Shown piece after piece: positions 6,531-10,857 of a stretch of 64,000 bases of DNA. The notes under the pieces were generated by a model, which saw only the letters and a program-made list of their open reading frames with translations, was not told the origin of the DNA and ran no database searches. The stretch's first letter is position 1, and each line of letters begins with the position of its first letter. The position numbers were made by a program, and so were the translations under genes. Source of the DNA: Amia ocellicauda (Eukaryota; Chordata; Actinopteri; Amiiformes; Amiidae); contig NC_089868.1 of NCBI RefSeq assembly GCF_036373705.1, forward strand, positions 12,649,020-12,713,019, in the 5' to 3' direction.

Positions 6531-9500
6531 CTAACACCATGTTGCTGTGTATCCAAAGTCACAGAAGTTCTCCTCCTCCTCCTCGGTGAGTATGATGGGC
6601 TGCTGAGGTGGAGTCAGGACTGGTATATTTTCTGACACGTATGCGCTGCTGAAATTCCTGACATCCTTGTGCCCTCTGATGGTAGGGATGAAAGGAGGCT
6701 TCACCTTCCTTTCCAGCAGCCCATTCCAATCCACTCTCTGAAACGAGACAGAAGAATGAAAGGACGGTCATGATAAGGTGGTGCCACCTTCATGTGAAAG
6801 AGTGGTTATAAAACGGATGGGTGCGCCAACGTACCGAGAAGTAGGGATGCTTCTTCACCTCTGCAGCATCCCCTTCACCTGACCCAAGGCGCTCGACTGG
6901 AGTTTTATGCAGAAGCTGCAGAGGATTCAAAACAAGAAGGAGACCACGTTATTTTCCATTAATGTACTTCAAGTTGAAACATGATGTTAAAAATAAGTTC
7001 CCATAGTTGGAAGTACAGTGAGTGAGTTTGCGTTGTGGTTTGGAACCTCACTCCACTGCTACACAGTCACTGGGTATTGCTCCAATTCCATAACATTGAC
7101 ATTAACATTTAGGATACAGAGAGACAAACTGGAGGCAAGAACTTAAAGAACAACCCTGGCATACAGACCTCTTTCATTATGGAGGCGGCCTTTGAAGAGA
7201 CGAACCAAGGATATCGCACTTCAGCCTCAACAATATTCCGAAACAACTGCTCTCCATCGTCACCGCGGAAAGGAGGCTACGGGCACAAGGAGAGAGGGAT
7301 GAGAGCACATTAAAGGGATACTCCAGACCAGACCTTTGAATATTCACATTCTGAGCCCAGGGATGCAAAAACCACACAGACACAAATATTGTATACTGCG
7401 CAACAAAATGGTAAATTCACACCTTAGACATGTCTTATTCATCGCTGCAATAACTGTTAAGAATACCCACCCTGCCAACCAGCATATGAAAGATGAGCAC
7501 ACCCAGGCCCCACCAGTCCACTGCCCGGGTGTAAGATGCTTGGGTCAGGACTTCTGGAGCGAAATACGAGGGAGTGCCGCAAGGTGAACTGGTGTGATCT
7601 CCGAAACCGATGCCTAGCAAGAATAATGAAGAGGAGTCAGGGAAAAAAAACACATTGTAGTACCAATGTAAATTATACATAAACTGCTAAACTAGGAAAC
7701 AAATACACATTTTTTTTTGTACCTTCCTTGCAGAGCCCAAAGTCTGCAATTTTCAGAAAGCCCTCTGAGTCCAGCACCAAGTTATCTGGCTTCAAATCCC
7801 TGAAATAAAAACACAGTATAATCACTTGGACTGCCGAATATAGAGAGAACTTGCCAGAAACACAAGAACTATTTCACTGTCAACCATTAAAGGACACATA
7901 CATTTCTCAAACTTTTTGTATTCAGGTACATGTGTACACTGATTTTAGGACATGACGTCTATTATGAGGATTTGTGAGCATCACAATAAATCATGTACAC
8001 AATCATTATAATAGAAATTACATTAAATGTGTGAATAGTTTAGCCTTGATCTCAGTGAGACTGTAGATTTTTTGCTTCTAGAAATTGCTGATGTGTGATA
8101 ACTTACCTGTACACTATTCTGCGCTCGTGCAGGAATTCCAAGCCCAGCACCACGCAAGCCGCATAAAATCTGTTCAAGAAAAAGATCAACAACAAAGAAA
8201 GGAGTTAAAATAGTTTTCCTCTTTGGTTCTTAAGCTCGGATTGCACTCAAATGTCAATGAGCCAAACCAGCCAATTTCCTGTCAATGCAGGAACTCCAGC
8301 AATCCATGTTATCCGATTTAAACACAAAATACAAACACCACAAACTGCCATTTTGGTCATTTTTTAAAAGTGCATCTGCATTCCTTTTGTGATAATGATC
8401 ATATTATTTTGTTGTACTTAGTTTTGTTATTTGGAGGTTGTGTGCTGATGTTTAGGAATCATAACCTGCAATAATGTCTGACCATATAGGTACACAGTCC
8501 TGAAACACACCTCAGGCATGACATCACTACTGCGGGCAGAGCGAGCTTATCTACTGAGATGGACGATTCTGCACACGTCACACGACTCAAAGTTTCACTT
8601 ACATGGCCCTGGGCTCCTTAAACCTGGCTGCCTGCATGTGTGTTGAGAGGTTTCCCCCTGCCGCAAACTCCATAACGAAACAGATGTGAACTTGCGTCTG
8701 GAAGCAGGACAGGAGGTTCACCAAAAAGGGGTGCCGGACACTGCTGACGGTCTCCAAAATCCTCCTTTCACACATGACGCTGAGGCGAGACAAAAGCATG
8801 TGAATATACATTTATAAACAGCATTGGTGAATAATCCTGCAGCTGCAACAAAATGCCGACTTTCCTGCATAGTAAGAAAGTAAAAAAGTCAAATAAGACC
8901 TTGCTAATGCAGTGCATTGGTGTATTCCATAAAAACACTTGACTAGATTTATCCATCATTGGTCTGCTTTCAAATCCAGCAGCTTCACTAGAGTCAAAAT
9001 GAAGCCTTACCTCTCAACATTACCAAGGATTACAATATCTCCTTTTTTCAGTGCCTTAATGGCCACCATTTCAGATCTATCTTTGTCCTCAGCAAGCAGC
9101 ACCTATGAGAGCAACACAGAATCAAGATGGTCAAACTCCACTCTCAACCCCTAGATCTACATTCACAACACAAGCATTTAGTAACACATCCTTCCTAATG
9201 CTGCACTTTAATAAGTCACACGCAATGCTTGTGTTAAAGGTTAAAAAGTGCAAATAATTTCAAAATTGTCCACACAGATTTCTTAGGAATCTAGTGTCGT
9301 GCAAATATCTATTCTCCACATTTCCTATTAAATTACTGATCGTTGGTTCTGCCCCACATTATAACCATGATAACTCTGATTACTGGGATTTACCTTCCCA
9401 AAAGTGCCATGCCCCAGCACGGCAACAGATTTGTAGTTCTTGACACCAGAACCCAGAAGCCGCTGCCCCCTGCAGAAGAGAGAGGGGGGAGAATAGTCAG

Positions 9501-10857
9501 TTGCAAAAATAAAGGACAATTCACTTAATTCAATAATCCAAAGAGTTACTGTGTCGTAACTCCTGACATATTGCATTATCATAGATGGACATTCAGAATT
9601 TATTTTAAAATCACAGGAACGTCTTCAATGTATTTTGCATTCTCCAAGAGCTCTTACCAAATCCATGAGTTGTACTGCACTCCAGTCACTATCTTATGCA
9701 ACGTTTAAGAGATCGAAGTGCTAATTTAATTTAATATATAATATCCTGTCATTCTTGTATTTTAGGAAGTTTCACAATGGAGTAAAATGTTAAAAAGTAC
9801 CTCATATCTGTAGATGATGGAACAGCTAAGCTCCCCGGCTCTGGAACGTCAATCTCCTCTCGACGGTGGGCGTCTGGTTTTGCCACATCACTACTTCTGT
9901 CAGTCGGGATGTCAGTCACCACTACATCCTGCAAATTGAGCACTTTCATGTTGAGAGGAGGAACAACAAAACTGTGGCCCTAGAAAAGTTCTGTTCCCTA
10001 GGGATATTACTGACGAATATTATTTCAAAATAAAATACATACATAGATACATATATAGTTATTGGCCAATGTAATGGTCAATTCACAGGGTCATTTATAT
10101 TGCCTGATCTCTATAATCACTTCAAACACACTTGAAACTAATTAGAAGCCTGTGTAGGGCTTTGAATAGTGAAACAGCAGTAAAGCAAATGACTCCTGAT
10201 TGTAAAATGTCTGCATAAAAGTAAGTTAGAATATCCATTTGCTTTGAAACATGCTTGGCCCGGCACCTCTGCCATCGGCGCAGCCACCGCTGTGTAGGGC
10301 TCGTTACTGATAAAAAGTCATATATTACATTACATGCTGATTTTGATATGGCGCACATGAGTAAATGAGTCTTGTTGGCTTTACAGCTACTTCCGATTTA
10401 AACACCTCATCATTCACATGGAGAACATATAATATAGCATCAAAACACCCATGCGTTTGCTAGAGAAACTGTAATATTATCACTCAAATTAAAACTCTAA
10501 CGCATTACATGAACTTGTTATTAAGAAATGCAGTGTTGTTACATTGTTATTACTGACGCCTCCCCCAACTCTGGCGCCGGCACATGAATTTCTGCTATAA
10601 ATTTGCTTTTCCACCTGGTTCATTTGCTTTACCTTCTGACTCGGTCTTTCCACGGCCGTCGTGCTGGTCGCCGGTGAGATGTCGTGCCTGGAGGCGGCAG
10701 TGAGGCCCTGTGCCTCAGGCAGACCCTCTCCAGCGCCTTCCTCTACCTGCCCACCAGCATCGGGCTTTTCCGGGCGAGACGTGAAGCGCCTCCATAGCAT
10801 GAGTGCCAGCACCACAGGATACACGTAGGACTTCCTCAAGATCGCCTTCAATCCCAT
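6531..10857 (-). CDS. PKN-like serine/threonine kinase without HR1/C2 domains (copy 1, intact)
   Basis: Eleven exons join in frame to 458 residues: 10857-10633, 9928-9801, 9469-9394, 9102-9011, 8779-8603, 8169-8107, 7799-7723, 7613-7471, 7276-7169, 6915-6835 and 6737-6531 (stop TAG), all with GT-AG borders. The catalytic core follows PKN closely: glycine loop [13 protein letters not shown] lysine, CERRILETV helix C, VYRDLKPDN, DFG, APE and [13 protein letters not shown], then the AGC tail with [15 protein letters not shown] and a C-terminal ATWC. PKN proteins are far longer, with HR1 coiled coils and a C2-like domain before the kinase; here only about 118 residues precede it. The leader has a hydrophobic run ([12 protein letters not shown]) between basic residues, perhaps a membrane or organelle anchor (inference). 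The start was chosen because copy 3 has an in-frame stop just upstream of the matching ATG. Odd points: the activation-loop Thr is Ser (TSSPCGTP), the NFD Asp is Ser, and the hydrophobic motif is FxxFGY. All main catalytic residues remain, so it is probably an active AGC-group kinase. Confidence 0.88.

Follow-up and report, generated by a model that had tools for sequence, protein, structure and literature searches.

A PKN-type kinase with an AKAP1-like leader belongs to an amplified gene family in Amia ocellicauda

Introduction

The PKN kinases are defined as a family by three HR1 domains (excerpts of PMC6408329). On their own, the first 30 residues of AKAP1 direct GFP to the outer mitochondrial membrane, and the remainder of AKAP1 is cytosolic (excerpts of PMC7072574). 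Here we analyse a stretch of 64,000 nucleotides from Amia ocellicauda (C25:12649020-12713019, contig NC_089868.1), called the window throughout, in which an earlier note made from the letters alone had placed a stand-alone PKN-type kinase gene at 6531..10857. This locus carries an open 11-exon gene for a short kinase whose leader resembles the AKAP1 anchor and whose relatives are spread over the genome. With somewhat better than even confidence, we read the product of this amplified family as a kinase derived from PKN that an AKAP1-type anchor would fix to the outer mitochondrial membrane, facing the cytosol and free of Rho control. Its subfamilies are named type A (copy 1, the gene at 6531..10857), type B (copy 2 of the window), type C (the intronless genes of contig C26) and type D (the genes of contigs C9 and C6).

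Results

Copy 1 is an open gene for a PKN-type kinase

The window contains three kinase copies, all on the minus strand. The coding span of copy 1 (10857-6531) comprises 11 exons that translate into 458 residues with no internal stop, and all 10 introns are GT-AG; the proposed stand-alone kinase gene is borne out as an open model. Its parts are listed below.

10858..10961, minus strand: predicted 5' untranslated region (5'UTR), a block homologous to the C26 and type B promoters
10633..10857, minus strand: exon 1, carrying the AKAP1-like leader (up to about residue 28) and the first part of the linker
9801..9928, minus strand: exon 2, linker, terminating ..VPSSTDMR
9394..9469, minus strand: exon 3, carrying the glycine loop
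9011..9102, minus strand: exon 4, VAIK lysine
8603..8779, minus strand: exon 5
8107..8169, minus strand: exon 6
7723..7799, minus strand: exon 7, RDLKPDN and DFG
7471..7613, minus strand: exon 8, activation loop
7169..7276, minus strand: exon 9
6835..6915, minus strand: exon 10
6531..6737, minus strand: exon 11, C-tail of PKN type, then stop

Residues 130-389 match Pfam Pkinase (E 3.4e-63). The short N-terminal stretch described in the earlier note is present, but its length of ~118 residues needs correction to about 130 residues before the kinase domain. Compared with the PDB, copy 1 matched PKN2 best (4crs, E 1.8e-149), followed by PKN1 (4otd, 1.2e-132) and PKC (1.2e-93), and its alignment to human PKN2 extends through the final residue of the C-tail. 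The kinase domain is 65% identical to human PKN2, 59% to PKN1 and 47% to PKCalpha in copy 1, and 68%, 62% and 49%, respectively, in copy 2. Identities to PKN2 and PKN1 are 65-68% and 59-63% for types A and B, and 59% and 56-58% for types C and D. The PDB ranking and the nearer identity to PKN than to PKCalpha support the PKN assignment of both the catalytic domain and the C-tail.

The catalytic Lys, the HRD/YRD Asp, DFG and APE are kept in all seven aligned rows (A, B, the type B copy L041, three type C and one type D). A tree of ten rows recovered A+B (96/99), C+D (100/99) and PKN1+PKN2 (92/94); the order of these three groups was unsupported, and copy 1 was flagged as a long branch. The activation-loop Thr of PKN, which we take to be its PDK1 site, aligns with Ser in types A, B and C and with Thr in the type D copy D16; copy 1 also carries an F to P change beside the Ser site. 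The hydrophobic motif of PKN is presumably FxxF(D/E)(Y/F), and its acidic residue is replaced by Gly in types A and B (copies 1 and 2); the rows of types C and D have D or E there.

No regulatory half was found before the kinase in the window

The N-termini before the kinase (131 residues in copy 1 and 92 in copy 2) gave no Pfam family up to E 5. When the regulatory region of human PKN1 was searched across the window by tblastn, nothing appeared below E 0.83; the PKN1 kinase, used as query in the same way, recovered exons of all three copies. The regulatory query was a sequence that we take to be correct; its first 304 residues are matched by PDB PKN1 chains. Both the Pfam scan of the N-termini and the tblastn of the window therefore agree with the earlier note that no HR1 coiled coil, nor a C2 domain, is found upstream of the kinase. 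Upstream HR1/C2 exons were rejected as a candidate because no similarity to them was found in the window. Since HR1 was not found, the kinase is predicted to be independent of Rho.

The leader resembles the outer-membrane anchor of AKAP1

The N-terminal 30 residues of human AKAP1 were taken from an excerpt of PMC7556861; the closely similar MitoDAKAP1 tag is given in part of PMC4526808. Each leader was scored against AKAP1 1-30 with BLOSUM62 and compared with 5000 composition and 5000 pattern-keeping shuffles, the numbers of which reaching the score are given in brackets in that order. The intronless type C copies C5 and C9 both scored 73 (0; 0), and the type D copies D16 and D30 scored 59 (0; 1) and 57 (0; 0). 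Scores were lower in L041, with 47 (3; 5), copy 2, with 39 (23; 22), and copy 1, with 33 (18; 51). When 1310 distinct Met-start 33-mers from the window and the other loci were ranked by similarity to AKAP1, the top eight were all leaders of the family; among the 478 from the window only, copy 2 ranked first and copy 1 second. Seven other anchors, CYP2C9 and HSD11B1 among them, served as controls, with sequences that we assume to be accurate. They reached at most 31 with the type C and D leaders, against 73, 59 and 57 for AKAP1.

The leader is common to both intact copies of the window, as had been claimed: their N-terminal alignment scored 139, and the highest of 2000 shuffles 47. Alignments of leader plus linker, also with 2000 shuffles, gave 94 for A-C (none reached it; maximum 56) and 74 for B-C (maximum 54), and the C-D alignment gave 207 (shuffle maximum 91). 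On these comparisons, the AKAP1 likeness appears strong in types C and D and seems to extend to the window genes mainly via their kinship with type C; the leader may descend from akap1. No PDB relatives of the AKAP1 30-mer were found, and the type C N-terminus had a single match in NCBIfam, far under cut-off.

The best 19-residue mean hydropathy is 1.28 in copy 1, 1.11 in copy 2, 1.65-1.87 in three type C/D leaders and 1.58 in AKAP1. The hydrophobic leader with basic flanks described earlier is thus present, but its core in the window copies is only modestly hydrophobic. The supposedly conserved MG does not hold, because the wider family has MFF and MAF. N-myristoylation at MG was set aside since types C and D lack the G. 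Anchoring to a membrane or organelle, as the earlier note suggested, would be the best reading of the leader; the note could not match the kinase to a described family, and the leader does resemble a described element, the AKAP1 anchor.

The gene belongs to a large amplified family

Family members were counted in one genome search that scored the best candidates, and all counts are lower bounds. Between 12.098 and 12.725 Mb of C25, the last exon of copy 1 recurs at least 10 times in tandem, at a spacing of 66-74 kb, and is accompanied by 10 leader exons. Contig C26 contains at least 19 intronless matches in which the matched frame has no stop, and further matches lie on C2, C6, C7, C8, C9, C11, C19, C21, C22, C23 and elsewhere on C25. 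The gene is therefore not single but a member of a large amplified family, with exons in at least 10 tandem units.

Across 3.2 kb, units L033-L035 are 99.97-100% identical to the window and L037 and L038 about 98%. The type A copy of the next unit (L044) is intact including its splice sites, as is the type B copy L041 on contig C2. L039 and L040 are broken, and matches on C8, C11 and C22 contain internal stops. In L042 (C25:495500-503000), a type B relative, exon 5 is changed and the final exons were not found in the fetched stretch; by eye, its upstream region is unlike that of other type B copies.

A variable acidic linker connects leader and kinase in types C and D, and all three parts are read in one open frame, measuring from Met 450, 485 and 505 residues in three type C copies and 497 in one type D copy. 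Because the frame is uninterrupted in these intronless members, the union of leader and kinase is independent of splice prediction. Intronless frames of 485, 520 and 540 residues were also noted on C26 at 7.9-8.1, 9.5-9.7 and 11.65-11.83 Mb, differing mainly in the length of the acidic, coiled-coil-like linker.

The ratio of nonsynonymous to synonymous substitution rates (dN/dS), computed over all aligned codons, was below 1 in all eight pairs (range 0.27-0.56): A-B 0.56, B-L041 0.31, A-C5 0.47, B-D16 0.41 and C5-D16 0.27, and, among the type C copies, C5-C9 0.45, C5-C23 0.28 and C9-C23 0.32. Copy 2 and L041 differ at 51 of 1212 exon and 135 of 2028 intron positions (p 0.004), the exons being less diverged.

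The type D gene of contig C9 has a 5' stretch resembling the 5'UTR intron of type B and no kinase introns. Type C is free of introns, and its leader follows immediately after the promoter block. This pattern suggests partial intron loss in type D and complete loss in type C, a better fit than plain retroposition. A plain retrogene with poly(A) was considered doubtful for the C26 copies: the promoter block is kept, and in one copy (L046) the first run of at least eight A lies 1855 bases past the stop.

No relatives of copy 2 were found in viral contigs; 44 phage records matched, each at less than 60% identity. We found no description of such a leader-kinase family in the literature searched, fish gene catalogues lying outside that search. 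At a guess, the gene is likely to be annotated automatically as PKN2-like.

Members of four subfamilies share a promoter block with a perfect CRE

A block containing a palindromic cAMP response element (CRE) lies upstream of members of types A, B, C and D.

11008..11015, no strand assigned: palindromic CRE TGACGTCA of the copy 1 promoter
46349..46356, no strand assigned: palindromic CRE TGACGTCA of the copy 2 promoter
11067..11080, minus strand: X-box-like site GTAACCATGGAGAC upstream of copy 1, the only zero-mismatch match to GTNRCCATGGNNAC in the window

The window contains two perfect CREs (0.49 expected), one upstream of each intact copy. In copy 1 the CRE ends 150 bp ahead of the ATG; in copy 2 the distance is 1.7 kb, and a predicted non-coding exon (46302-46049) with a good donor intervenes. 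TGACGTCA is also found upstream of the type A copy L044 and the type B copy L041, and, on C6, ~2.2 kb ahead of the type D gene; L042 has a CRE only in a setting that seems unrelated by eye. Promoter alignments (500 shuffles each; the type B and D stretches were chosen for their CRE content, so part of their scores is built in) gave 57 for A-B (shuffle maximum 28), 43 for A-C (26), 52 for L041-A (29) and 44 for type D (C6)-L041 (33). A TTCA 47 bp past the CRE points to a transcript start of copy 1 near 10961, and the start predicted earlier, near 10.86-11.0 kb, would agree with the promoter block around 11.03-10.91 kb common to other subfamilies.

The C26 copies have GTCACCATGGCGAC upstream of the CRE, and the X-box-like GTNACCATGGNGAC precedes the CRE in both type A and type C, 51 bp away in the former and 10 bp in the latter. 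This site may have a regulatory role. In male germ cells, RFX2 acts via X-boxes and CREM-tau via CREs, and their targets scarcely overlap (excerpts of PMC4498915); S-AKAP84 has been found in spermatids (excerpts of PMC7072574). Expression of the family in germ cells would be a guess from these analogies.

Copy 2, the broken third copy and other features of the window

Copy 2 encodes 403 residues in 9 coding exons (44687-41424). When its predicted 5'UTR exon and leader exon were joined in silico, the leader ATG was the first in frame, after an in-frame stop.

46049..46302, minus strand: copy 2 predicted non-coding 5'UTR exon, donor GC|GTGAGT, a homology block
44415..44699, minus strand: copy 2 leader exon merged with the glycine-loop exon, acceptor CTAG before 44699, ATG at 44687
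44126-44035, 43821-43645, 43282-43220, 42953-42877, 42777-42635, 42196-42089, 41797-41717 and 41621-41424, minus strand: copy 2 kinase exons
29442..31397, minus strand: third kinase copy, broken; tblastn pieces 29442-29821, 30076-30183, 30693-31001 and 31299-31397

The third copy is 93% identical to copy 1 across 6561-7454, and no leader is among its tblastn pieces (29442-31397). A transposase frame of Tc1/Sleeping-Beauty type (31301-32203, minus strand) overlaps at its end the glycine-loop piece of this copy (31299-31397). Inside the tandem kinase array region, a 205-residue frame at 59595-60209 (minus strand) matches Pfam SNAD1 (E 1.2e-21), a secreted AID/APOBEC-like deaminase. In PMC11004436, the paper on SNAD1, a term search of the main text did not return the word 'kinase'. 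The window has no Rfam families and no tRNA. Four adjacent open frames at 22493-24101 (plus strand) are, as we take them by eye, of hAT transposase type; a Pfam scan of two of these frames returned no match.

Discussion

We read the locus as encoding a short kinase that begins with a signal anchor of AKAP1 type and a linker and continues with an entire PKN-type catalytic domain including the C-tail. With the anchor inserted in the outer mitochondrial membrane, the basic flank on its C-terminal side and the kinase would face the cytosol, as in AKAP1 itself. Lacking HR1 and C2, the kinase would escape control by Rho and lipids, so that its output, if it is active, would be set by location and by the amount made, perhaps after PDK1 priming on the activation loop. 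The gene would have multiplied as tandem units of ~70 kb, dispersed intron-bearing copies and intronless copies, with related promoters bearing the perfect CRE. More tentatively, at somewhat less than even confidence, we envisage a chimeric origin. In this view, akap1 would have supplied the promoter, the 5'UTR and the beginning of the coding sequence with the outer-membrane anchor, and a PKN2-like gene the catalytic exons, producing a Rho-independent kinase of the mitochondrial surface; dozens of tandem and intronless copies would have followed, perhaps with a CRE/X-box germ-cell promoter.

Several observations weigh against these proposals. The third-ranked Met-start peptide of the window, from an unrelated frame, comes close at 32, copy 1 scores 36 with the CYP2C9 anchor of the endoplasmic reticulum (ER) and 33 with AKAP1, and low hydropathy makes the anchoring of both window leaders less certain than that of their relatives. 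The A-D match at the N-terminus is weak (53, with 1 of 2000 shuffles equally high), and the ten-row tree leaves it unsettled whether A+B and C+D form one clade. The Ser in place of the PDK1-site Thr in types A, B and C, the F to P change of copy 1 and the Gly in types A and B may have altered activity. Two type A units differ at 5 of 1377 exon and 17 of 2944 intron positions, a contrast that is not significant (p 0.49). For the promoter, 9 of 100 window shuffles contain at least two CREs, and beside the built-in part of type B and D scores, four pairs are marginal: B-C 28 (shuffle maximum 26), D-A 28 (27), D-B 36 (32) and L041-C 32 (29). The best D-C match (33, maximum 28) sits upstream of the CRE, the type D block was not recovered from type B by blastn at E 1e-3, and the type D gene of contig C9 has no exact CRE in roughly 4.6 kb upstream.

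The leader could alternatively be a generic signal anchor, of ER (cytochrome P450-like) or Golgi kind, that arose independently of AKAP1 and holds a PKN kinase on a non-mitochondrial membrane. Short anchors readily converge, and HSD11B1, at 31, comes second to AKAP1 for D16 and D30. Because copy 1 slightly favours CYP2C9, an ER anchor has some claim on the window genes in particular. We nevertheless regard this alternative as unlikely, given the wide margin by which AKAP1 outscores all seven control anchors for the leaders of types C and D, and given how types A and B are linked to type C through leader and linker.

Another view would hold the array and its relatives to be mostly non-functional duplicates of a truncated PKN, without a present role. 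The broken copies, including that at 29.4-31.4 kb, and the stop-containing matches speak for it, and units L033-L035 may be open through youth alone. We consider such general decay quite improbable: the distant members (A, B, L041, C and D) are open with all catalytic residues kept, dN/dS stays below 1 throughout, and the CRE recurs across the subfamilies. It is very improbable that the 5' end is incomplete, with the leader exon internal and PKN regulatory exons upstream in the true transcripts. Immediately ahead of the ATG, copy 1 has possible 3' splice sites and copy 2 a convincing one, but the shared promoter block is directly upstream of copy 1, precedes the non-coding exon of copy 2 and adjoins the intronless leaders of C26; the window moreover yielded no HR1/C2 similarity.

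If the kinase is indeed anchored by an AKAP1-type leader, evolution in a vertebrate lineage has arrived at a design that cell biologists engineer, a kinase brought to the outer mitochondrial membrane by such a tag. A single polypeptide would stand in place of scaffold plus kinase, and a PKN kinase would be released from Rho. Natural variation in the activation loop (Thr or Ser) and in the hydrophobic motif (Gly or an acidic residue) would supply a ready-made set of proteins for testing which of the PKN controls are important, and one may ask what selects for the amplification.

Compared with the AGC kinases PKN2 and PKN1, the family aligns end to end over the kinase domain and C-tail and differs in that HR1 repeats and a C2-like domain are not found before the kinases of copies 1 and 2. 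The caspase-released PKN catalytic fragment likewise consists of a PKN kinase without its regulatory half (excerpts of PMC6408329); that fragment is a product of cleavage, whereas here the short form is encoded by the gene and an anchor is added. With AKAP1 (D-AKAP1, S-AKAP84, AKAP121/149), the family shares an N-terminal leader with a basic C-flank, type C having PL--P--L-L-GW-W--SRK over 22 residues and type D a similar pattern. The window leaders have diverged from the AKAP1 anchor much more than those of types C and D, KH and Tudor are not matched in the copy 1 and copy 2 proteins, and AKAP1 is a kinase anchor whereas the family protein is a kinase. The synthetic AKAP1-anchor tags on reporters and tethers (described in parts of PMC4526808 and PMC7556861) place the same kind of anchor before a foreign domain; in the fish family, the fusion was apparently made by evolution.

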